A stretch of DNA of 64,000 nt from contig NZ_AP019309.1 of the NCBI RefSeq assembly GCF_003925875.1, forward strand, positions 1,984,001 through 2,048,000, written 5' to 3'. The notes under the pieces are model-generated. The model made no database searches. It was given only the letters and a program-made list of their open reading frames with translations, and was not told the origin of the DNA. Of this stretch, positions 6,253 to 45,961 are shown piece by piece (position 1 is the first letter of the stretch; each line of letters opens with the position of its first letter). The position numbers were made by a program, and so were the translations under genes. This DNA is from Intestinibaculum porci. GTDB taxonomy: Bacteria > Bacillota_I > Bacilli_A > Erysipelotrichales > Coprobacillaceae.

Positions 6253-7639
6253 TACATTACATTATGCACAATTTATCTAGATAGTAACTAAGGGGATTGA
6301 CCAAACCTGGGCAGTCTCCTTTATCTTTCTCAAGAAATTTAGGACTTAAAATAAAATTAACAACATTACCGGTTGCATTACGGTACCATCCCAGACGCGA
6401 ATTAGCTACTTTAAAGATATCATCGAATGAAAAATGACAATGCATAATCTTATTCAGATATGTAAGATGTCTAAAGATCGTTTTGGGTCTTTTCCACATT
6501 TTTAAAATGATAACCCTGATCTTGTGACGTAACCACTTGCCCAACTCAATAAGAAAGCTTTTCATCATACCAATACGGAAGTAATTAATCCATCCTCTCA
6601 GTATTTGATTGACTTTCGTAATTGTATCTGCAAGCGTGCGGGCTACAGCTCTTTTTCTCAAAAGAACCACTTTAAGCTTGTCATAAAGTCTCTTCTTTCT
6701 ATCATCAGCAGGTTTACATCTCCATTGTTCTTTATAATGCAAGAACGTAAAGCCAAGAAATATACTCTTGTTGGGGCGTACAACTTTGGTTTTTGTTGCA
6801 TTAACCTTCAAGAATAGCTTTCTTTCTATCCATGAGCTAATTGATTTCATCACCCGGTTTGCTGACATTTCACTTTTTACGTATACACATGTGTCATCAG
6901 CGTACCTCGAAAAATTTAATCCTCGTTGCTCTAACTCTTTATCGAGCTTATCAAGATATATATTACTGCAGATCACGCTTAAGGGTCCGCCCTGAGGCAT
7001 ACCCAGCGGTGTAGGTGATATTATCCCATTCTCCATCACTCCGGCTTTGAGAAAAGAACGGATAAGATGAAGAATATTCCTATCGTTCACCTTTTCTCTA
7101 ATAATGGATATGAGCTTGTCCTGATTGACTGTATCAAAAAACTTCTCAATATCCAAGTCAACGACCCACTCATATCCTGCATTAAGATAACCAAGGACCT
7201 CATGGACTGCCGTATGGCAACTTCTCCCAGGTCTAAAGCCATGACTATGCTCGCTGAACAACGGCTCATAAATTTCAGACAACTGCTGAGCGACTGCCTG
7301 CTGGATAACCCTATCAACAACCGAAGGGATTCCAAGCGGTCTCTTTTTGTTGCTGTTTGGCTTTTCAATATAAACCCTCTTAACAGGAAGAGGACAGTAT
7401 CTTCTTTCTCTGATTTGAGCACAGATCTCTTCTTCATGTCCAAAGAAATACAGGTCCAATTCTTCGACGGACATGCCATCAATTCCTGCTTTTCCTTTGT
7501 TATTCTTAATTTGATGGTAAGCGTTAGATTAAATATCCATAATTACAAAATTATGATAATTTAAAATCTATATAAGCATGATTTTTGATTTTAAACCGGT
7601 TACTCTCTAACTTGAATAAATATAACTTTTAATGGAAAT

Positions 7640-7674: not shown

Positions 7675-7947
7675 TGTTTAATTTGGCTAAGTTATATTAA
7701 TGACATCTTATTCAGAGTATTGATTTTACTTTTTTGTTATGCCTGAAGGCTGCTGCGGGCTGGATCAGTGTAATAAAGATATAACTTCATAGTCTGATCT
7801 GCTAGCGGTACTATGTCTGGTTAGTGTTTGCATAGATTTATGATCTTTCAGCTGTCTTCAGCAGGCTGCATATTAATCGATTAAGGCAATTCTTTTTGCC
7901 CGGGATATTAATAAAACCCAAAACAAGCACTCCTAGGCCGGCGGCTG

Positions 7948-9846
7948 TTAAGCCGCTGGCCTGGATGTTGTGCTATTTATATTTTCTGTCATCATTGCGT
8001 GTCGTCTTTCAGCTCTTGCAGTATCCACATCAGCTTTAACTGGCATTTCAGGCTCTTCAGTGCAGAAGTCTGGTATTTTCCCTAACGGTCTGCTGAACCT
8101 CTCTTCCTCGAATTTTTGGTATTCGCTTGACCAGGGCATCATCTCATCGATATATTCGCTAATATCGACGCTGGCATGGGCAAGTGAGCTTTCGAAAAGA
8201 TATTCCAGATACGTATGCGGATCGCAGCCGTTTGACTTGGCAGTTTCAATAAGCGTCATAATGATGCAGAGCGTTTCAGCGCCGCCGATGGAATAGCAGA
8301 ACAGACTATTGTTTCTGACCATGGCTATATTACGAATCTTGCGTTCGCATTCACCGTTATCGATTGGAACCATTGGATCATCAAGAAACACTCTGAATGC
8401 ATCCTCATGATTGAGGCTGTAGCTCACCGCATCCTCCATTTCCTCACTAAAAGTGCCGCTGCTGATATCAAGGGACTTGATATAATCAAAGTATGCATCG
8501 ACAAGCGGTCTTTCGATTTCGTCTCGGACTTTAGCTCTTTCCTTGGCGGTAAGTTCTTTGGCATCATCATCAGCGCTGTAAAGATCACCGATCATATCGA
8601 GACACTTTTTTTCGGGGCTTTCCTCAAGAAGCTCTTTATCCTTTACCGCTTTAAATTTCACTTCATATGCCTTGTACAGTCTGCGTCTCAGATGCATAAA
8701 GCACCCGCCGAGTATTACATGATCCTTTTTCTCCGAAGCCAGCTTATAATAGGCGCTGTAGGCATCAGATGTCAGATGGATTGTGCCGTCGTTAAGATCC
8801 GCATAGAACTCAAGAAGGTGATCCGCTGATCTTGTCAGCTCGAAGCAGAAGACTGCCAGCGGCCGCTCTTCTTCAAATTCGCCAGTGATATGACACCATA
8901 TGTAGCTTTTGCTTCCCGCATTTCTTCCGTCATTGATGACTTCCAGATAGGTTTCATCAATCTGGGTGTATGTCCGGCAGGCCATTTGTCTCATTATCTC
9001 GCTATAGACTGGCTTTAGATATCTGTCAGTGCATTTAATGACCCAGTCTGACATTATCTCTTTTGACAGGTTGATTCCCTGATATGACAGAACCCTTGAC
9101 AGCCTTGCCAGGGGAACTCCCAGCACAAATTTGAAAGACATGATAAAAGCCAGCAGTGAAGGCGTAACCTTGCTCCTTAACATCAGCTTATTAACCGGCA
9201 GTGCCACTTCGCGTAAATCATTAGTATCATCATCGTCATAGACTCTGATCACTGGGCGTTTGACATATACCCTGTAGAGATTTCCTGGAATAAACATAAA
9301 TTCTTCGGATATGTTCCAGCCTTTTAATGTCCATTTGCCGTAGCCGTATTCTTTATCGATACGCTCCCTGTCAAAGTCAATAATCGTTATTTCTGGTATC
9401 TGTCTGGTCTTCTTTTTCCTGTTTAGCTGCCTGCAGGCAGGTCTTTTTATTTTCCTGGATTTTTGGCTGTCATTATTATTCTGTTTTTTACCATCACAGT
9501 CGCTTTCATTCATTTCTTCCGAAAGAGGGTCGCTAAACTCATCATCGTGGATTTTGCCATTCATCTTTTCAGACTTTCTTCCAAAGCGATTCTTTTTGAG
9601 CTCATCCGTCTGATTCTGAAGTCTGGTATTCTCATGATTAAGAGTGTTAACTCTTATAACTAGATCTTCGCATTCGGCTTTAACCTTCTTAAGCTCATCG
9701 GCTGTGTAGCTGAATGTGTTTTTTAATTCATCCAGTTCGGCACGTAATCCGCAGCACTCTTCATAATATTTTAAAGCAACCGCAATCAGGTCCGCATAAC
9801 TCATTTTATTCAGTTGCTGTTTAAAATATGCGCTGTCTGCCTTCAT
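7948..9846 (-). CDS. tnpC: IS66 transposase TnpC
   Basis: This 632-aa IS66 transposase has an N-terminal leucine-rich coiled coil (about 25-90), a basic linker, and a DDE domain. Candidate catalytic residues are the Asp in TQIDETYLEV, the Asp in HLTSDAYSAY and the Glu in DNGECERKIRNIAMVRNN, followed by the conserved SIGGAETLCIIMTLIETAKSNG segment. The C-terminus contains the DPHTYLEYLF motif of the family. It appears intact and lies 10 nt downstream of the small accessory ORF in the same operon. Confidence 0.93.
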   Translation of the reverse strand: MKADSAYFKQQLNKMSYADLIAVALKYYEECCGLRAELDELKNTFSYTADELKKVKAECEDLVIRVNTLNHENTRLQNQTDELKKNRFGRKSEKMNGKIHDDEFSDPLSEEMNESDCDGKKQNNNDSQKSRKIKRPACRQLNRKKKTRQIPEITIIDFDRERIDKEYGYGKWTLKGWNISEEFMFIPGNLYRVYVKRPVIRVYDDDDTNDLREVALPVNKLMLRSKVTPSLLAFIMSFKFVLGVPLARLSRVLSYQGINLSKEIMSDWVIKCTDRYLKPVYSEIMRQMACRTYTQIDETYLEVINDGRNAGSKSYIWCHITGEFEEERPLAVFCFELTRSADHLLEFYADLNDGTIHLTSDAYSAYYKLASEKKDHVILGGCFMHLRRRLYKAYEVKFKAVKDKELLEESPEKKCLDMIGDLYSADDDAKELTAKERAKVRDEIERPLVDAYFDYIKSLDISSGTFSEEMEDAVSYSLNHEDAFRVFLDDPMVPIDNGECERKIRNIAMVRNNSLFCYSIGGAETLCIIMTLIETAKSNGCDPHTYLEYLFESSLAHASVDISEYIDEMMPWSSEYQKFEEERFSRPLGKIPDFCTEEPEMPVKADVDTARAERRHAMMTENINSTTSRPAA

Positions 9847-11112: not shown

Positions 11113-11855
11113 ATGCAAAAGCCTCCCTATTAGAATAATTTGATACATTAATAATTCTAATAGAAGGCATAACTAATTTCATGGATATTACCTCATACGC
11201 TTACATTTGATGCAGTGCTCGCATCAGGTTCTCATGATCTAAAATCTTGTCTGTTAGATTCATTGCTGCTTTCTCCTTCTATAGTAGATTATTTAGAAAC
11301 ATCCCAGCTTCGGTATTTGATCATAGACAAGGTACGCCCTATCCAGCGGATCACCTAACTTGCGGACTATCTAAATATTGCAAATAGTGAATTAGCACTA
11401 TGTAACATTAGGCCCTTCGATATCTCTATCTACTACAACCTCAGCTGACTTCTAGTGGCAACCTTTTTCGTCCGACGTTCACCCATACTGTTTAAAAGAT
11501 TCAGGAATTCATCGTCCACTAGATCTCCCTAAAGAGCATTGAGATTTAGGCATCCTTCAAGGATACTCCCTCTCGTACTCGGGGTAAGGACACACATCAC
11601 ATTTGAATCCTCACTAGCTCTGAATTTACCTTACTGATATATACGTCTACCCTTTAGGGCTTTGGCTTGATGTGCAGCCTTACCCAACAGCTAGGCCTAA
11701 TTCAGTTTCTGTTCGTAGCCACAAGGATTTTGCTACACCGCTTCCTTCATCCATAACATCACTGCTATAAACTTGCGGTTCACTATACTTGGCGGTAGAT
11801 TCCCGTAGTTGATTTCACATCAACAAGATGTGCGCCATGCCCGGCACACACAGTT

Positions 11856-25241: not shown

Positions 25242-25270
25242 ATTATAGCACAAAAAAGAGGACCATTGAA
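25242..25270 (-). promoter_or_regulatory. Promoter of the Shango-like operon
   Basis: On the minus strand a TATAAT box (25242-25247) lies 23 nt before the sngA-like start. A weak TTCAAT -35 is 17 nt further up, inside the terminator hairpin of the upstream symporter gene. GGAGGGG just before the start is a strong ribosome binding site. Confidence 0.6.
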
Positions 25271-25278
25271 TGTCCTCT
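25252..25278 (-). terminator. Terminator of symporter gene
   Basis: A 7-bp stem AGAGGAC / GTCCTCT is followed by six T on the minus strand, directly after the symporter stop codon. Confidence 0.88.
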
Positions 25279-25279
25279 C

Positions 25280-26518
25280 TTAACAATCTGCGTAAGCCAT
25301 TTCCTTCGCCTTCGCACGGGCTTTCTGTAAGTGTGACACAATGATCGCACAAGAAGCATCGCCAGTAATATTTAAAGTGGTACGACCCATATCGAAGATA
25401 CGATCGACGCCAGCCACTAAGGCAATACCCGCTACAGGTAAGCCGACTGACTGTAAGACCATCGCTAACATGACCATCCCCGCGCCAGGTACCCCAGCCG
25501 TGCCAATAGACGCTAAGGTCGCCGTTAAGACAATGGTGATCATCTGACCAAAGGTTAAGTTAATGCCGAAACATGAAGCGATGAAAACTGCACAGACACC
25601 CTGATAGATGGCTGTTCCATCCATATTAATGGTTGCCCCTAATGGTAAGACGAAAGATGTAACTTCTTTCGAAGCGCCTAACTTTTCTGCACATTCCATA
25701 TTGAGCGGCAGCGTCCCTACGGAAGAAGCACTTGAGAAGGCAAATAACATTGCTGGCAGCATTCCTTTGAAAAATTCTAATGGACTTAATCCGCCAGCGG
25801 CGCGGACAGCCATCGAGTAAACAACCACAGCATGAATCGCAAAACAAAGGTAAGCCACCAATAAGACTTTGGCTAAAGAGCCGATGACAACAGCGCCATT
25901 TTCCGCAATAACCGGACAAAGCAAACAGAAGACACCAATTGGTGATAAGTGTAAGATCATATCCATACACTTCATAAAGATTTCATTGAGCACATCAATC
26001 GCTTTGATAGCTGGCTCAGCTTTTTCCCCTACTAAGATAATCGCAAAGCCAATAATTAACGCCATGACAATGACCTGTAACATGTTGTTGTTCACCATTG
26101 GTGAGATAAAGTTATCTGGGAAGATATTGACGATTGTTGACATTAATGAAGGCGCTTTAGAAGCGGTATACGATAAATTGCCCGTCGCGAGTTTTGGGAA
26201 AAAGCCCTTCGCTAAATTGGCAATGACTAAACCGATGGTTGTCGCACAAGCGGTTGTTAAAGTGTAGTAAAGTACAGCGGTTCCCCCGATTTTGCCGACT
26301 TTACGAATATCCTTCATCGAAACAACCCCTGCCATAATCGAGAATAAAACGATTGGCACAACGATAAACTTCACTAAGTTTAAGAAGATCGTTCCAAAAG
26401 GTTTAATGTAGTTATTGGCGATCGCAGCCTGATTTTGCATGAGCAGACCAACAATAATCGCCAGTACTAAGGCAATGAAAATTTGCCCTGCAAGTGGTAA
26501 CTTTCTTAACTTTTTCAT
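25280..26518 (-). CDS. Dicarboxylate/amino acid:cation symporter (DAACS family)
   Basis: 412 aa, about eight TM helices plus re-entrant loops. Family motifs are visible: a Ser-rich hairpin FAFSSASSVGTLPLN, the NMDGTAIYQG motif in TM7, and the ASIGTAGVPGAG hairpin, with DRIFDMGRTTLNITGDA in TM8. These mark the GltP/DctA/SstT group, which takes up glutamate, aspartate, C4-dicarboxylates or serine/threonine with sodium or protons. Substrate cannot be decided from what I see. It has a strong ribosome binding site AGGAGAG and a long leader with its own promoter and terminator-like hairpin, suggesting attenuation control. Confidence 0.88.
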   Translation of the reverse strand: MKKLRKLPLAGQIFIALVLAIIVGLLMQNQAAIANNYIKPFGTIFLNLVKFIVVPIVLFSIMAGVVSMKDIRKVGKIGGTAVLYYTLTTACATTIGLVIANLAKGFFPKLATGNLSYTASKAPSLMSTIVNIFPDNFISPMVNNNMLQVIVMALIIGFAIILVGEKAEPAIKAIDVLNEIFMKCMDMILHLSPIGVFCLLCPVIAENGAVVIGSLAKVLLVAYLCFAIHAVVVYSMAVRAAGGLSPLEFFKGMLPAMLFAFSSASSVGTLPLNMECAEKLGASKEVTSFVLPLGATINMDGTAIYQGVCAVFIASCFGINLTFGQMITIVLTATLASIGTAGVPGAGMVMLAMVLQSVGLPVAGIALVAGVDRIFDMGRTTLNITGDASCAIIVSHLQKARAKAKEMAYADC

Positions 26519-26671
26519 GTAAACTCTCCTTTAAATACTGTGCTATTATGGCATAGTTTGAAGTTATTTACAAGAAAATTATCATAAAAAGAAGGGTTTA
26601 TTAAATTATGAAATCTTTTATTCACTTTTGTATTTAAAGAAAAATGAATCGATGAATTGTCTTAAGATCGT

Positions 26672-26697
26672 AAAAAGCCGAATCGCTTCGGCTTTTT
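26672..26697. terminator. Bidirectional intrinsic terminator
   Basis: Stem AAAAAGCCGAA / TTCGGCTTTTT with a 4-nt loop. It has a T-run on either strand, so it may end both the minus-strand leader RNA and any plus-strand transcript. Confidence 0.88.
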
Positions 26698-26810
26698 ACT
26701 GATATGACTCAATTGTGTTCGGCTAATCCAGCGCACTGAGCGAAGCACCGTTTCTGAAACGCGTAGGCTCACGACTCCCAGCCTCACTCAATGTACTGGG
26801 CATCTCTATG
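26672..26810 (-). ncRNA. Candidate small RNA or riboswitch-like leader of the symporter gene
   Basis: Starting just after a near-perfect sigma-A promoter, about 140 nt of GC-richer, self-complementary sequence (for example CCCAG / CTGGG; GGCT / AGCC; CGTTT / AAACG) ends in an intrinsic terminator. It lies about 155 nt upstream of the symporter start in the same direction. It could be an independent sRNA or an attenuating leader. I could not match it to T-box, lysine, glycine, SAM, 6S or SRP RNA consensus from memory. Confidence 0.6.
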
Positions 26811-26816
26811 CTTTAT

Positions 26817-26845
26817 AGTATAGAGCTTGCACCTGTATATGTCAA
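26817..26845 (-). promoter_or_regulatory. Strong sigma-A promoter of leader/sRNA
   Basis: On the minus strand TTGACA (26840-26845), 17-nt spacer, TATACT (26817-26822). It is one of the best consensus promoters noted in the window. Confidence 0.8.
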
Positions 26846-26867
26846 TAATATTTTATTATATTGATAA

Positions 26868-27977
26868 TTATCTTACATTCCCATCATTCTTGAATCCTAC
26901 CCCTAAAGACTTGGAATAGCTATTCATATGGTGAATGATCCGCGTTTTTTCGGCGCCTGAGACAATCGTTGGCTGATAATCATTTTTATAGGTGACAGAT
27001 GATAAACGACATGGAATCATTTTTAACTGTTTGTCTTTTATCAGTTTGCCATCTTTAAAATGGAACGTCTTCTGTAAAATCATCGTTTCTTTATCTTTAG
27101 GATTGGTATTTCCGCCAAAGCAGAAGTTTCCTAAAGAATAAGCAATATAAGCCCCTTTATAGCGTTCTACCCCCTGTAAGACATGAGGATGATGACCAAG
27201 TACTAAACTTGCTCCCTGGTTGATCGCATAATGGCCTAAATCTTTCTGTAAAGATGTTAAGCTATGGGTCCCTTCAATCCCGCCATGCATGCTCACGACA
27301 ATAGCATTGGTCTTTTGCGCCTTACATTTTTTAACCCCATCTCTGATCAAGCGTTTCGCATAAGGCATCGATCCAAATGGCATCGCCTGGTTAAAATCAA
27401 CGGAGATAAAACCTAGCTTCACCCCTTTGACCTGATAAACACCCACATGTTCAAAAGAGGCATAAGTCATCTGATAGTCTTTAAATGCTTTTAAGGTATC
27501 GCTATAACTCTTTTGTCCATAATCCTTACAATGGTTATTAGCAAAGGACGCAACGTCAATATGACCTTTCTTTAAAATGTCCATATATTTAGCGGGTCCT
27601 TTAAAAGTAAAGGCTTTTTTCATTGGCGTCGCCACATTCGTTAATGTGCCTTCAAAGTTAACCACACTGACATCATCTTTCGCAAAGACAGGGGCAACCT
27701 TTTTCAAGAAATAAGAAGAACCATAACGATCATAATAAGCTGGCAAAGTGCGACTGTAGGATTGTTTCGGATCTTTTCCTAAGGTGGTATCACCCGCTGC
27801 TGATAACGTAATATAGACATCCTTACTTGCTTTTTTCACTGTTTTTGCTTGACGCGTCACTGTTTTGACCTTTGTCGGCGTTTCTTTCGCCACCGTTTTT
27901 TGCTCATTTTGACAGCCTACAACGCCGCTGCATACTAACGCTAAGGCAACGCTTTTCATGGCTAATCCTTTAATCAT
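26868..27977 (-). CDS. CapA/PgsA-like lipoprotein (metallophosphatase fold)
   Basis: 369 aa. A hydrophobic N-terminus with lipobox GVVGC indicates a lipoprotein anchored outside the membrane. The PGA_cap domain shows LSAAGDTTLGKD (metal-site Asp), VVNFEGTLTN, FANNHCKDYG (the ANNH motif), VVSMHGGIEG, GHHPHVLQGVE and AYSLGNFCFGG, all typical. These proteins are linked to poly-gamma-glutamate capsule or related polymer handling; no pgsBC partners are seen nearby, so the actual role is open. The start at 27977 overlaps the phoH stop by 4 nt, implying coupling. Confidence 0.85.
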   Translation of the reverse strand: MIKGLAMKSVALALVCSGVVGCQNEQKTVAKETPTKVKTVTRQAKTVKKASKDVYITLSAAGDTTLGKDPKQSYSRTLPAYYDRYGSSYFLKKVAPVFAKDDVSVVNFEGTLTNVATPMKKAFTFKGPAKYMDILKKGHIDVASFANNHCKDYGQKSYSDTLKAFKDYQMTYASFEHVGVYQVKGVKLGFISVDFNQAMPFGSMPYAKRLIRDGVKKCKAQKTNAIVVSMHGGIEGTHSLTSLQKDLGHYAINQGASLVLGHHPHVLQGVERYKGAYIAYSLGNFCFGGNTNPKDKETMILQKTFHFKDGKLIKDKQLKMIPCRLSSVTYKNDYQPTIVSGAEKTRIIHHMNSYSKSLGVGFKNDGNVR

Positions 27978-29290: not shown

Positions 29291-29500
29291 GCATTTTAAA
29301 CTATTTATAAAAAATATTTGCGTTTTCGTCAATTGATTTTCGAAATTCCAGTTAGATATTTCTAACGTGAATTCTATCATTCACTTATTAATCCTTATGT
29401 TTTTTATGAATTTAGTTATTCAGTTATTTTAAAATGTGATAAAATTATCATGATATTAAAGTGTTAAACTAAATTCGATTTGGAGGTAAGGACAAAAAAA

Positions 29501-29557
29501 GATGATGAGTTAACGCCCTGGAAAAGCTTCTCATCATCTGTCCAACAAGACAATATG
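29501..29557 (+). promoter_or_regulatory. Leader mini-ORF and hairpin before accessory gene (IS30-like copy 1)
   Basis: A Shine-Dalgarno GGAGG (29482) precedes a four-codon ORF ATG ATG AGT TAA (29502-29513). Its start lies in the 5' arm of a hairpin GATGATGAG / CTCATCATC (29501-29538). After the hairpin comes TGTCCAACAAG, then the accessory gene ATG (29555), which has no ribosome binding site of its own. The same layout occurs in the ISL3 element at 32273-32329. Translational coupling or attenuation is inferred. Confidence 0.55.
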
Positions 29558-30448
29558 ATAGTAATACACACCACGCCTGTTTTCAAGTATAAAAGTTTAA
29601 ATATGCATTTATGTGATGGTTCCTTTTCCTTCAATGATAAGATTTCCTCATGCTTCAAAGAGCTCATTAGAAATTCTTCTAGTGCAGAGCAGAAGCCTGA
29701 GCACGTCTTTCCTGACTGCGCAAATAACCACTTATGGAACAATAACTTTTCCGTTGCCCTTTTAGTGCGCTCTGATAACAGATTCTTTTTCAGACTGGTT
29801 AAAAAGCTTTATGAAGCTTGCCTTTCATCAACTGAACTTGCTTATGACATCATGCTTTTCATCAACGCCACCTATTCATATATCATGAACACCTTCTCTG
29901 CAGAGGATATTGTGAGAACAATACCCGATTTTTCTGATGAGAACGCACATGACTGGATAAAATTCGGGCATTACAAGAAGATCGTAAACATTAACGATAC
30001 TCCTTATGAATTTCAGCTTCAGCGCATCTACTCCAAAAGCCTTCATAAAACTCATGCCGTGTTTCCGCTGGGAATTATCCCTTTTATGCGTGAAAACCTT
30101 TTTGATATCCTTCTATACCTGCATCAGATCTTTCACGGCGACAGCAGCCTTGAGGATTTTCATGGTCGGCTTAGAGCACTCCTGGAATATCTTTATGCAA
30201 CCCCTAAGATCAATAAAATGAGTGATAATTTGCTTTCTAATCTTATATGCTCATTTATCGCTGATCACTTCAAAGATTTCTATCAAAACAGTTTCATGAC
30301 CGTTACTAAAGGTCTCACCAAAGATTGCGTAAAAAACAGCTTCCTCCGCGATGATGTTGCCTGCCCATTACCAACATGGGAAAAATGTGAATCCTCCCTG
30401 ACGGTGTTAAACTTCTTTGTAAAGAAGCGGGAAACCGCCAAAAAATAG
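29555..30448 (+). CDS. IS30-associated accessory protein with DUF6431-like domain (copy 1)
   Basis: 297 aa if started at ATG 29555; a longer frame from TTG 29480 would run through the leader hairpin. The core is GHYKKIVNINDTPYEFQLQR, then IYSKSLHKTHAVFPLG (about residues 138-175). It closely matches GFYTRYVNIDGEPVEYRIMR followed by RIRSGRTGMTHAV in the ISL3 accessory gene of this window. I associate this domain with DUF6431, a family seen beside transposases; that name is from memory. Function is unknown. It is the first gene of the element's operon, followed by a 69-aa gene and the transposase. Confidence 0.65.
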   Translation: MIVIHTTPVFKYKSLNMHLCDGSFSFNDKISSCFKELIRNSSSAEQKPEHVFPDCANNHLWNNNFSVALLVRSDNRFFFRLVKKLYEACLSSTELAYDIMLFINATYSYIMNTFSAEDIVRTIPDFSDENAHDWIKFGHYKKIVNINDTPYEFQLQRIYSKSLHKTHAVFPLGIIPFMRENLFDILLYLHQIFHGDSSLEDFHGRLRALLEYLYATPKINKMSDNLLSNLICSFIADHFKDFYQNSFMTVTKGLTKDCVKNSFLRDDVACPLPTWEKCESSLTVLNFFVKKRETAKK

Positions 30449-30476
30449 AAAAAATATCAAGGAGGTGGCATTAAAC

Positions 30477-30686
30477 ATGTCAAATATCACAAAGAAGGCG
30501 GCTATTAAGAACGATAGCCGAGAAATCAATGGGACTATGCGCCCTTCGAAAGGCAAAAAACGTTGCAGAAAGCTTTCAGAAGTCGAAGAGGACGCATTAA
30601 TGAGAAGACTCTATCCCTACACATTAATTGATTACTGCTACCAAACAGTAATGCAGGAAGGTGATAAGAATGGAAAGAGCCGCTAA
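30477..30686 (+). CDS. Small basic IS-encoded protein (69 aa, copy 1)
   Basis: Starts MSNITKKAAIKND after a strong AAGGAGGTG. It is rich in Lys/Arg (PSKGKKRCRKLSEVEED), with a C-terminal helix LMRRLYPYTLIDYCYQTVMQ. It overlaps the transposase start by 17 nt. It is unrecognised and may be a DNA-binding helper or a coupling peptide. It is identical in copy 2. Confidence 0.6.
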   Translation: MSNITKKAAIKNDSREINGTMRPSKGKKRCRKLSEVEEDALMRRLYPYTLIDYCYQTVMQEGDKNGKSR

Positions 30687-32061
30687 AAAGCCCATAGGAT
30701 ATCAGAAGCACATAACTTATGAGCTTCGAGAAAAGATTGAAGCAGGTCTCAAGAGCGGCCTTAATAAGGCCCAAATTGCCAAGACCATTCATAAAGATCC
30801 AACTACCGTCGCTAAGGAAATTCGGAATCACAGAACTCCTTCAGGATCGCCAAGCAAGGCACCCTTTGACTGCGCCAACTACAAAAAGTGCACAAGAGGA
30901 CGGGAGTGCAGAACCAGCCATGAGGTGTTCATGGAATGCACTGACTACACCCTGTTTAAATGCAATCAAAGGGACAGATCACCGGGCGTCTGCAACGGCT
31001 GCACCAAAGCCCCCAGCTGCAGATTCTCAAAATACTACTACAGAGCAGATGTGGCCCAAAGAGCATACGAATATATGCTTAGGGATTCGAGAATGGGCTT
31101 CAACCTCACCTATTCAGAGGCTCAGTGGATGGCTGATATCATCAAGCCTGAGCTTGAACAGGGCAAGTCACCGTATGCAATTCTTAACGAGCATCCTGAG
31201 CTCAAAATTTCCGAAAAGTGCCTGTACAACTATATTGAGCAGGGTGCATTTGAACAGTTTGGAATCAATAGCCTGGCGCTCAGAAACCAGGTAAAGAGAA
31301 GAAAGATGCCTAAGGTACGCGCTAACCAGTACAGAAAGCGCAAGGACAGCGGCTATTTAACCGGAAGAACATTCAAGGACTTTCTTGAATACAACCCCCT
31401 TGTGGCCGCACAGTACAGCATCAATCATAGCGTTAAGCTCTATGATGGTGCAGAACGGCCTGATAGCGAGCAGGCAATTGATCATCCTGTCGGCTATATC
31501 CTTATGGATACCGTTTATAATGATGTTTCTAACGGCCCGTTTATTCAGACTTTTAAGATCATGCCAGGCGGTGTATTTCTTGCCGTCTATCATGATGAAA
31601 AAACAGCTGAGGAGATGGTGAATGGCCTTGACTATATTGAAAAGCTGCTTGGCCCGGATGTATTTATTAATAATATAGGGTCTATCCTGACTGACAGAGG
31701 CAGTGAATTCTCGCTGGCCGATGAATTCGAAGACAGAGAGTCAGGAACATGCCGAATCTTCTACTGTGATGCGATGCATTCAAATCAGAAGGGATCACTT
31801 GAGAACGAGCATCTTGTTTTAAGATATATCTGCCCTAAGAAAAAGGATCTCCGCAAGCTTGGGCTTGTAAGTCAGGAGGCCCTTAACAGAGCCGTTAATA
31901 ATATCAACTCCTACTCCCGCAAGCTCTATGGCGGCAGAAGTCTCTATGAAAACACGGCTTTCATGATGCCGGAGATCTATGAGGCTCTAAAGTGCAAAGG
32001 CTATAGCCAAATCGATAAAGACAAGGTGGAGTTAAAGCCTTCAGTTTTAAAGAAAAAGTAA
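30670..32061 (+). CDS. IS30-family transposase (copy 1)
   Basis: 463 aa from ATG 30670 (GTG 30661 also in frame; AGGAAGG upstream). The N-terminal HTH is HITYELREKIEAGLKSGLNK, then AQIAKTIHKDPTTVAKEIRN. A Cys-rich zinc-like region follows (CANYKKCTRGREC ... CNQRDRSPGVCNGCTKAPSC). The DDE integrase core shows YILMDTVYND, GSILTDRGSEFS and SNQKGSLENEHLVLRY. Intact. It differs from copy 2 by no residue that I found. Confidence 0.93.
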   Translation: MERAAKKPIGYQKHITYELREKIEAGLKSGLNKAQIAKTIHKDPTTVAKEIRNHRTPSGSPSKAPFDCANYKKCTRGRECRTSHEVFMECTDYTLFKCNQRDRSPGVCNGCTKAPSCRFSKYYYRADVAQRAYEYMLRDSRMGFNLTYSEAQWMADIIKPELEQGKSPYAILNEHPELKISEKCLYNYIEQGAFEQFGINSLALRNQVKRRKMPKVRANQYRKRKDSGYLTGRTFKDFLEYNPLVAAQYSINHSVKLYDGAERPDSEQAIDHPVGYILMDTVYNDVSNGPFIQTFKIMPGGVFLAVYHDEKTAEEMVNGLDYIEKLLGPDVFINNIGSILTDRGSEFSLADEFEDRESGTCRIFYCDAMHSNQKGSLENEHLVLRYICPKKKDLRKLGLVSQEALNRAVNNINSYSRKLYGGRSLYENTAFMMPEIYEALKCKGYSQIDKDKVELKPSVLKKK

Positions 32062-43138: not shown

Positions 43139-43400
43139 ATTCCGGCTCTCCTCCGCAAGACATTCTACCATTTTTCCCTAGTCCTGAAAAGCCTTTAACT
43201 CCTCCCGCGCGTAAAAAAACATGGAGCGTCAATTGATTTTCGAAATTCCAGTTAGATATTTCTAACGTGAATTCTATCATTCACTTATTAATCCTTATGT
43301 TTTTTATGAATTTAGTTATTCAGTTATTTTAAAATGTGATAAAATTATCATGATATTAAAGTGTTAAACTAAATTCGATTTGGAGGTAAGGACAAAAAAA

Positions 43401-43457
43401 GATGATGAGTTAACGCCCTGGAAAAGCTTCTCATCATCTGTCCAACAAGACAATATG
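43401..43457 (+). promoter_or_regulatory. Leader mini-ORF and hairpin before accessory gene (copy 2)
   Basis: Same arrangement as in copy 1: GGAGG, ATG ATG AGT TAA within the hairpin GATGATGAG / CTCATCATC (43401-43438), then the accessory gene ATG at 43455 without a ribosome binding site. Confidence 0.55.
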
Positions 43458-44348
43458 ATAGTAATACACACCACGCCTGTTTTCAAGTATAAAAGTTTAA
43501 ATATGCATTTATGTGATGGTTCCTTTTCCTTCAATGATAAGATTTCCTCATGCTTCAAAGAGCTCATTAGAAATTCTTCTAGTGCAGAGCAGAAGCCTGA
43601 GCACGTCTTTCCTGACTGCGCAAATAACCACTTATGGAACAATAACTTTTCCGTTGCCCTTTTAGTGCGCTCTGATAACAGATTCTTTTTCAGACTGGTT
43701 AAAAAGCTTTATGAAGCTTGCCTTTCATCAACTGAACTTGCTTATGACATCATGCTTTTCATCAACGCCACCTATTCATATATCATGAACACCTTCTCTG
43801 CAGAGGATATTGTGAGAACAATACCCGATTTTTCTGATGAGAACGCACATGACTGGATAAAATTCGGGCATTACAAGAAGATCGTAAACATTAACGATAC
43901 TCCTTATGAATTTCAGCTTCAGCGCATCTACTCCAAAAGCCTTCATAAAACTCATGCCGTGTTTCCGCTGGGAATTATCCCTTTTATGCGTGAAAACCTT
44001 TTTGATATCCTTCTATACCTGCATCAGATCTTTCACGGCGACAGCAGCCTTGAGGATTTTCATGGTCGGCTTAGAGCACTCCTGGAATATCTTTATGCAA
44101 CCCCTAAGATCAATAAAATGAGTGATAATTTGCTTTCTAATCTTATATGCTCATTTATCGCTGATCACTTCAAAGATTTCTATCAAAACAGTTTCATGAC
44201 CGTTACTAAAGGTCTCACCAAAGATTGCGTAAAAAACAGCTTCCTCCGCGATGATGTTGCCTGCCCATTACCAACATGGGAAAAATGTGAATCCGCCCTG
44301 ACGGTGTTAAACTTCTTTGTAAAGAAGCGGGAAACCGCCAAAAAATAG
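43455..44348 (+). CDS. IS30-associated accessory protein with DUF6431-like domain (copy 2)
   Basis: 297 aa, identical to the copy 1 protein except Ala for Ser near the C-terminus (CESALTV instead of CESSLTV). It has the same GHYKKIVNINDTPYEF core and the same leader. Function unknown. Confidence 0.65.
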   Translation: MIVIHTTPVFKYKSLNMHLCDGSFSFNDKISSCFKELIRNSSSAEQKPEHVFPDCANNHLWNNNFSVALLVRSDNRFFFRLVKKLYEACLSSTELAYDIMLFINATYSYIMNTFSAEDIVRTIPDFSDENAHDWIKFGHYKKIVNINDTPYEFQLQRIYSKSLHKTHAVFPLGIIPFMRENLFDILLYLHQIFHGDSSLEDFHGRLRALLEYLYATPKINKMSDNLLSNLICSFIADHFKDFYQNSFMTVTKGLTKDCVKNSFLRDDVACPLPTWEKCESALTVLNFFVKKRETAKK

Positions 44349-44376
44349 AAAAAATATCAAGGAGGTGGCATTAAAC

Positions 44377-44586
44377 ATGTCAAATATCACAAAGAAGGCG
44401 GCTATTAAGAACGATAGCCGAGAAATCAATGGGACTATGCGCCCTTCGAAAGGCAAAAAACGTTGCAGAAAGCTTTCAGAAGTCGAAGAGGACGCATTAA
44501 TGAGAAGACTCTATCCCTACACATTAATTGATTACTGCTACCAAACAGTAATGCAGGAAGGTGATAAGAATGGAAAGAGCCGCTAA
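44377..44586 (+). CDS. Small basic IS-encoded protein (69 aa, copy 2)
   Basis: Identical to the copy 1 protein at 30477-30686. AAGGAGGTG upstream; its end overlaps the transposase start. Confidence 0.6.
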   Translation: MSNITKKAAIKNDSREINGTMRPSKGKKRCRKLSEVEEDALMRRLYPYTLIDYCYQTVMQEGDKNGKSR

Positions 44587-45961
44587 AAAGCCCATAGGAT
44601 ATCAGAAGCACATAACTTATGAGCTTCGAGAAAAGATTGAAGCAGGTCTCAAGAGCGGCCTTAATAAGGCCCAAATTGCCAAGACCATTCATAAAGATCC
44701 AACTACCGTCGCTAAGGAAATTCGGAATCACAGAACTCCTTCAGGATCGCCAAGCAAGGCACCCTTTGACTGCGCCAACTACAAAAAGTGCACAAGAGGA
44801 CGGGAGTGCAGAACCAGCCATGAGGTGTTCATGGAATGCACTGACTACACCCTGTTTAAATGCAATCAAAGGGACAGATCACCGGGCGTCTGCAACGGCT
44901 GCACCAAAGCCCCCAGCTGCAGATTCTCAAAATACTACTACAGAGCAGATGTGGCCCAAAGAGCATACGAATATATGCTTAGGGATTCGAGAATGGGCTT
45001 CAACCTCACCTATTCAGAGGCTCAGTGGATGGCTGATATCATCAAGCCTGAGCTTGAACAGGGCAAGTCACCGTATGCAATTCTTAACGAGCATCCTGAG
45101 CTCAAAATTTCCGAAAAGTGCCTGTACAACTATATTGAGCAGGGTGCATTTGAACAGTTTGGAATCAATAGCCTGGCGCTCAGAAACCAGGTAAAGAGAA
45201 GAAAGATGCCTAAGGTACGCGCTAACCAGTACAGAAAGCGCAAGGACAGCGGCTATTTAACCGGAAGAACATTCAAGGACTTTCTTGAATACAACCCCCT
45301 TGTGGCCGCACAGTACAGCATCAATCATAGCGTTAAGCTCTATGATGGTGCAGAACGGCCTGATAGCGAGCAGGCAATTGATCATCCTGTCGGCTATATC
45401 CTTATGGATACCGTTTATAATGATGTTTCTAACGGCCCGTTTATTCAGACTTTTAAGATCATGCCAGGCGGTGTATTTCTTGCCGTCTATCATGATGAAA
45501 AAACAGCTGAGGAGATGGTGAATGGCCTTGACTATATTGAAAAGCTGCTTGGCCCGGATGTATTTATTAATAATATAGGGTCTATCCTGACTGACAGAGG
45601 CAGTGAATTCTCGCTGGCCGATGAATTCGAAGACAGAGAGTCAGGAACATGCCGAATCTTCTACTGTGATGCGATGCATTCAAATCAGAAGGGATCACTT
45701 GAGAACGAGCATCTTGTTTTAAGATATATCTGCCCTAAGAAAAAGGATCTCCGCAAGCTTGGGCTTGTAAGTCAGGAGGCCCTTAACAGAGCCGTTAATA
45801 ATATCAACTCCTACTCCCGCAAGCTCTATGGCGGCAGAAGTCTCTATGAAAACACGGCTTTCATGATGCCGGAGATCTATGAGGCTCTAAAGTGCAAAGG
45901 CTATAGCCAAATCGATAAAGACAAGGTGGAGTTAAAGCCTTCAGTTTTAAAGAAAAAGTAA
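44570..45961 (+). CDS. IS30-family transposase (copy 2)
   Basis: 463 aa, identical in translation to copy 1: HTH, Cys-rich region and DDE core (YILMDTVYND, SILTDRGSEFS, KGSLENEHLV). Here the downstream non-coding end is uninterrupted, so this copy is a complete element and probably mobile. Confidence 0.93.
   Translation: MERAAKKPIGYQKHITYELREKIEAGLKSGLNKAQIAKTIHKDPTTVAKEIRNHRTPSGSPSKAPFDCANYKKCTRGRECRTSHEVFMECTDYTLFKCNQRDRSPGVCNGCTKAPSCRFSKYYYRADVAQRAYEYMLRDSRMGFNLTYSEAQWMADIIKPELEQGKSPYAILNEHPELKISEKCLYNYIEQGAFEQFGINSLALRNQVKRRKMPKVRANQYRKRKDSGYLTGRTFKDFLEYNPLVAAQYSINHSVKLYDGAERPDSEQAIDHPVGYILMDTVYNDVSNGPFIQTFKIMPGGVFLAVYHDEKTAEEMVNGLDYIEKLLGPDVFINNIGSILTDRGSEFSLADEFEDRESGTCRIFYCDAMHSNQKGSLENEHLVLRYICPKKKDLRKLGLVSQEALNRAVNNINSYSRKLYGGRSLYENTAFMMPEIYEALKCKGYSQIDKDKVELKPSVLKKK

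Follow-up and report, generated by a model that had tools for sequence, protein, structure and literature searches.

A candidate nitrogen-linked small RNA between capA and a symporter gene in Intestinibaculum porci

Introduction

Between a CapA-like gene and a symporter gene of Intestinibaculum porci lies a short segment in which a strong promoter, a structured RNA and a terminator follow one another directly. Does this segment act as a switch for the transporter gene behind it, or does it encode an RNA of its own? A first-pass annotation of the locus left the choice between a riboswitch or attenuator and a free small RNA (sRNA). The question is addressed here within a 64-kb stretch of contig NZ_AP019309.1 (the window, to which plain coordinates refer; an L number before a coordinate denotes another locus), the rest of the same genome and the genomes of related species.

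Structure of the RNA locus

The promoter of the predicted sRNA is of the sigma-A type (26817..26845, minus strand). It combines a -35 box TTGACA (26845-26840), a spacer of 17 nt and a -10 box TATACT (26822-26817), and it matches 11 of the 12 consensus positions; counting both strands, only four promoters in the 64 kb are as good. The -35 box is overlapped by the motif ATAATAAAATATTATTGACA, an operator-like AT-rich dyad (ATATAATAAAATATTATTGACA; 26840..26861, minus strand). Judging by the position of the -10 box, transcription would start near 26810 and give a predicted sRNA of ~140 nt (26670..26811, minus strand), which is present in a single copy in its own genome.

Structurally, a short predicted 5' hairpin precedes a core long imperfect hairpin of 72 nt (26728..26799, minus strand), whose outer helix of ~18 bp, with one mismatch, is present in every low-energy fold listed. 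At full length the RNA has a folding energy of -55.6 kcal/mol (z -4.2), a signal that comes in part from the terminator, since z is only -1.7 without it; the 72-nt core hairpin alone reaches -32.4 kcal/mol (z -3.4), and 3 of 1000 shuffles are equally good. A 28-nt linker, AUUAGCCGAACACAAUUGAGUCAUAUCA (26700..26727, minus strand), is mostly unpaired in both the minimum-energy and the centroid folds and is a candidate pairing region. The intrinsic terminator (26670..26699, minus strand) has 13 perfect pairs, a GCGA loop and five U in its 3' arm (-17.2 kcal/mol). The window has no second perfect stem of at least 13 bp, and 10 sequences of 64 kb simulated with a Markov model contained none. The GC content of the sRNA segment, 52% versus 39.5% for the window, is unsurpassed by any other intergenic 112-nt segment of the window. 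These promoter, hairpin, linker and terminator elements, with the fold statistics, confirm what the first-pass annotation had described, namely a near-consensus promoter, a GC-richer structured RNA of ~140 nt and a perfect terminator. Its account lacked the strand, which is the minus strand for all three elements, and missed the operator-like motif that the promoter has in common with nitrogen genes (see below).

Could the transcript be a messenger instead? A 26-codon ORF lies within it (26723..26803, minus strand), and one reading makes the RNA a nitrogen-regulated mRNA for a protein of 26 residues (MPSTLSEAGSREPTRFRNGASLSALD), akin to the small proteins that act as inhibitors in nitrogen metabolism. 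The ATG falls ~8 nt after the predicted start, and the 26 codons stay open across the hairpin. However, with a leader of less than 10 nt, no Shine-Dalgarno sequence and a position inside a strong hairpin, the ORF is probably not translated. Its product has no match in Pfam or PHROG, and at 52% GC an open run of 26 codons is nothing unusual. This makes a small-protein gene very improbable.

Relation to the symporter gene

The gene that follows encodes a sodium:dicarboxylate/amino-acid symporter of the SDF family (25280..26518, minus strand; Pfam PF00375, E=3e-126). Its ATG at 26518 lies about 150 nt past the terminator, in line with the 155 nt noted earlier. Promoter, structured RNA, terminator and transporter gene in a row form the classic layout for a riboswitch or transcription attenuator, which here would control the symporter by termination or read-through at 26670. 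Against this stands the equipment of the symporter gene itself: a separate predicted promoter with an extended -10 (TTGTAA-17-CATAAT, TGc; 26545..26573, minus strand), 97 nt beyond the sRNA terminator, a Shine-Dalgarno sequence (AAAGGAGAG) and its own terminator (AGAGGAC-8-GTCCTCT, then a T run; 25252..25278, minus strand). The antiterminator that a switch of this kind calls for does not appear in folds of the growing transcript either, and when the terminator hairpin is disallowed, its 5' arm finds no competing partner and stays unpaired.

Conservation upstream of homologous transporters had been set beforehand as the test that could refute a riboswitch, and it is absent. The closest symporters in the order (L089 and L090) are 67% and 66% identical, and the sRNA was found upstream of neither of these orthologues, nor ahead of the family homologues inspected, which at ~40-44% identity lie mostly within operons. 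Ahead of one orthologue lies another gene followed by a short AT-rich spacer, and ahead of the other a structured region. The latter, at L090, was considered as a counterpart of the sRNA and rejected as unrelated in sequence. Adding the lack of an Rfam match, the sRNA is not a riboswitch or attenuator of the symporter by any test run, and we regard that reading as improbable. Of the two possibilities first proposed, the free sRNA, with its own promoter and terminator next to a gene that has both as well, is the one that is supported.

Directly downstream of the symporter gene lies a complete Shango-type anti-phage operon (18983-25218, minus strand; SngC, SngB and SngA by PADLOC profiles). In the family genomes searched, SngA has only weak matches, partial in length and at 24-33% identity. 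A link between the sRNA and the Shango genes was dropped, the symporter gene having its own terminator and an extended -10 lying ahead of SngA. The window also contains mobile DNA. The same ORF pair occurs twice, ~13.9 kb apart (29480-32061 and 43380-45961, plus strand), with a 322-aa product of unassigned family and a 466-aa, IS30-like product with an HTH_38 domain; the two copies bracket other transposases and housekeeping genes. A group II intron reverse transcriptase/maturase (6257-7474, minus strand) and a separate match to group II intron domains D1-D4 (11592-11768, minus strand) sit among IS66 and IS110 elements, and the strongest hairpin of the window (7909-7980; -36 kcal/mol per 72 nt) adjoins the end of an IS66 transposase gene.

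Identity and distribution

As the first-pass annotation had found, the RNA belongs to no known class that could be recognised. The region has no Rfam match at the gathering threshold, and in a permissive search the best matches stay far below it (BTnc005, 19.1 vs 174.8 bits; AgrB, 22.5 vs 40). A tRNA or tmRNA identity was rejected by search, an IS or repeat copy by the single copy of the sRNA, and 6S RNA (RF00013) by the location of the genome's 6S candidates elsewhere, at 2887681 and 1584143. Of these two candidates (L078 and L079), one scores above and one below the Rfam cut-off.

No homologue was found by BLAST in 316 genomes of the order, or in 43 family genomes with a covariance model whose reach is limited by its construction from one sequence. 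Matches of 23-26 nt in G019 (within a coding region), G036 and G222 are at chance level. An 18-mer scan of the contig collection gave 5 unrelated matches, with ~7.5 expected by chance; two exact-pattern scans found no copy in viral contigs, a plasmid search returned nothing and a phage search one match only, again at chance level. The sRNA thus appears specific to the species or lineage.

The CapA-like (PGA_cap) gene upstream (26868..27977, minus strand; Pfam PF09587) has an orthologue in the sister species (L048), whose genome is 82% complete and carries phoH-capA, then a terminator, then amtB. In other genera of the family (L051, L054 and L055), capA is followed by a ZMP/ZTP riboswitch (RF01750), apparently leading fhs, as we take that gene to be from its sequence. 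That riboswitch thus occupies the same place downstream of capA as the sRNA, but the two have no sequence or Rfam similarity, and a ZTP identity was rejected with no match even in the permissive search. With amtB in the sister species and the ZTP riboswitch and fhs in other family members, the place after capA is variable, and the sRNA would be either new or lost elsewhere.

The short distance to capA suggests a further origin, in which the RNA derives from the 3' UTR of the phoH-capA mRNA; the operon would end in the hairpin and terminator, and the internal promoter would matter little. The capA stop codon (26868) lies ~7 nt before the operator-like dyad, no other terminator was seen before 26670, and capA of the sister species likewise ends in a terminator hairpin. 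Yet termination does not require a 72-nt GC-rich hairpin, and what separates capA from the RNA is a near-consensus promoter whose nitrogen-type dyad scores best in the sampled genome. We therefore give this origin little chance.

The promoter motif and nitrogen genes

What, then, might the promoter respond to? When the sister genome was searched by BLAST with the sRNA region, three matches had E<0.01, all of them falling on the -35 box and the sequence upstream of it. They precede two tandem glutamine-type ABC operons (L005 and L007) and a type III glutamine synthetase gene (L006), identities that we assign from the sequences. A fourth site of the sister species, reached independently via capA synteny, is the amtB promoter, with CAATAATTTATTATTGACA. 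The dyad is an exact or near match to sister sites at glnA, amtB and two glnPQ operons.

A weight matrix made from these four sister-species sites only was used to scan 1,262 upstream regions of the I. porci genome, covering 2.43 Mb (about 75% of it) in 20-kb stretches. The sRNA promoter ranks first of the 1,262, with a score of 27.3 (next 22.8), and nitrogen genes follow among the high ranks, an enrichment that is partly post hoc, since it was a BLAST search with this very promoter that brought the motif to light. The genes below it include asnB at rank 3 (score 19.9), amtB at 6, amino-acid ABC binding proteins at 7 and 8, glnA at 11, a peptide ABC binding protein at 13 and a second amtB at 17. 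The ranks of glnA and amtB show conservation rather than independent discovery, as the two are orthologues of training sites, whereas asnB, the second amtB and the binding-protein genes count as independent finds. In a first sample of 855 regions, both amtB genes fell in the top 9 (chance ~1e-4). Among 311 TTGAC promoters from about half of the genome, the dyad upstream of the sRNA again scores best (17.4, next 9.9), a value equalled by 2 of 5000 composition-matched shuffles. Read by eye, the promoters of amtB and asnB have the same TTGACA-17-TATACT arrangement as the sRNA, and that of glnA has TTGACA-17-TATAAT. Since its promoter is the best motif match in three quarters of the genome, the sRNA probably belongs to nitrogen control and is not a switch of the neighbouring transporter.

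The asnB gene has a feature of its own, a leader of more than 300 nt (L092:8475-8819, minus strand) that starts from the promoter with the nitrogen-type dyad. By eye it is T-box-like (AGCGAGCCGG...GGTGAAAGTCCGG), and a terminator immediately precedes asnB, but the leader has no Rfam match. At L158:12336 (minus strand), a strong dyad-TTGACA promoter-like site has no gene within 500 nt on its strand, and possibly serves another non-coding transcript.

The motif could in part be an UP element. Carried further, this would make the RNA a free orphan sRNA with a strong promoter, its likeness to nitrogen genes reflecting generic promoter strength and no regulon. Consistent with such a reading, the AT-rich dyad adjoins a near-consensus -35 box, composition-matched shuffles reach the scores of the weaker sites in 1-2% of cases, and several high-ranking sites precede genes of no obvious nitrogen role: a choline-type kinase/nucleotidyltransferase (rank 2), a repeated mobile ORF (4-5) and a thiM-like gene (10). 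An UP element, however, predicts ribosomal-protein or tRNA promoters among the top sites, where none was recognised; asnB and amtB supply 2 of the 4 best upstream scores among the 311 TTGAC promoters, and the three sister-species matches and amtB are all nitrogen genes. We consider an orphan RNA without a regulon unlikely, though well worth weighing. The rank-2 site itself lies ahead of a gene (L186:1941-3755, plus strand; the same locus as L003) that we name, from its sequence, a choline-type nucleotidyltransferase/kinase with an HTH start, not an obvious nitrogen gene.

The motif does not follow the GlnR consensus TGTNA-N7-TNACA: a TGACA half is present, but where the spacing calls for the other half, the 5 nt are ATAAA. 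In our view the motif resembles an ATAAT-N5-ATTAT dyad such as LysR-type proteins bind.

Model and implications

The reading that we favour, at a probability of roughly 0.55, is that the locus encodes a stand-alone, lineage-specific sRNA of ~140 nt that is part of a nitrogen-assimilation regulon. The sequence elements, the motif common to nitrogen genes and the lack of homologues in the genomes searched are direct results of the sequence analysis; the expression, regulator and targets of the sRNA are what we infer from them. In the proposed mechanism, the near-consensus sigma-A promoter would start the ~140-nt RNA and its own terminator would end it, while a nitrogen-responsive regulator would bind the dyad over the -35 box. 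The near-consensus sequence of the promoter suggests that this regulator is more likely a repressor, released at nitrogen shortage. The same control would reach glutamine synthetase, ammonium transporters, asparagine synthetase and glutamine/amino-acid ABC transporters. During the nitrogen-limitation response, the sRNA may then pair in trans through the 28-nt linker or a hairpin loop. Such pairing would be Hfq-independent, as no Hfq gene was found in the genome by a search that detects it in E. coli and B. subtilis. In a duplex scan of the 1,262 start regions, nothing rose beyond shuffled seeds; glnA ranks 22, through the apical region only, and shuffled seeds do as well overall. The symporter was rejected as a neighbouring pairing target, its start region ranking near the bottom of the scan.

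A broader proposal, which we hold tentatively and at somewhat less than even odds, is that this Firmicute lineage has a nitrogen-control system not yet described and separate from GlnR, recognisable by the motif ATAATWWWWTATTATTGACA; the orphan RNA, which has the strongest site, would be its dedicated Hfq-free sRNA arm. If so, one motif would tie glnA, amtB, asnB and amino-acid transport to an sRNA, and conserved genes would flank a nitrogen-responsive sRNA that a single lineage has recently gained. It would also offer a testable entry into nitrogen sensing in Hfq-less gut Firmicutes, with the motif as a possible bait for the regulator.

Comparison with known systems

We know of no sRNA of this kind among GlnR targets. 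The GlnR/TnrA regulon of Bacilli offers a parallel in gene content: like the set described here, it comprises glnA, amtB and glutamine transport genes with promoter-proximal dyads, but its consensus TGTNA-N7-TNACA (PMC9249791) is one that the present motif does not follow. Nitrogen-regulated sRNAs themselves are known from other groups, among them NsiR4 in cyanobacteria (PMC9196836) and NfiS, NfiR and sRNA154 (PMC9170634). A review of nitrogen sRNAs makes no mention of Firmicutes or Gram-positive bacteria, and where it names Bacillus, twice, it does so for an engineered sRNA and in the title of a reference (PMC9170634). NsiR4 is a stand-alone sRNA under a global nitrogen regulator (PMC9196836, PMC9170634), much as the RNA described here has a promoter motif common to nitrogen-assimilation genes. 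Unlike it, NsiR4 belongs to the cyanobacterial phylum, has an NtcA operator, bears no sequence relation to the present RNA and is described as highly conserved in its phylum, whereas the I. porci RNA has no homologue in the genomes searched. sRNA154 of Methanosarcina mazei is likewise tied to nitrogen metabolism, through glnA and nif mRNAs (PMC9170634), but is archaeal and unrelated in sequence and targets. By function, the putative nitrogen-regulated sRNA of I. porci would thus join a known kind of regulator, to whose members it is unrelated in sequence.
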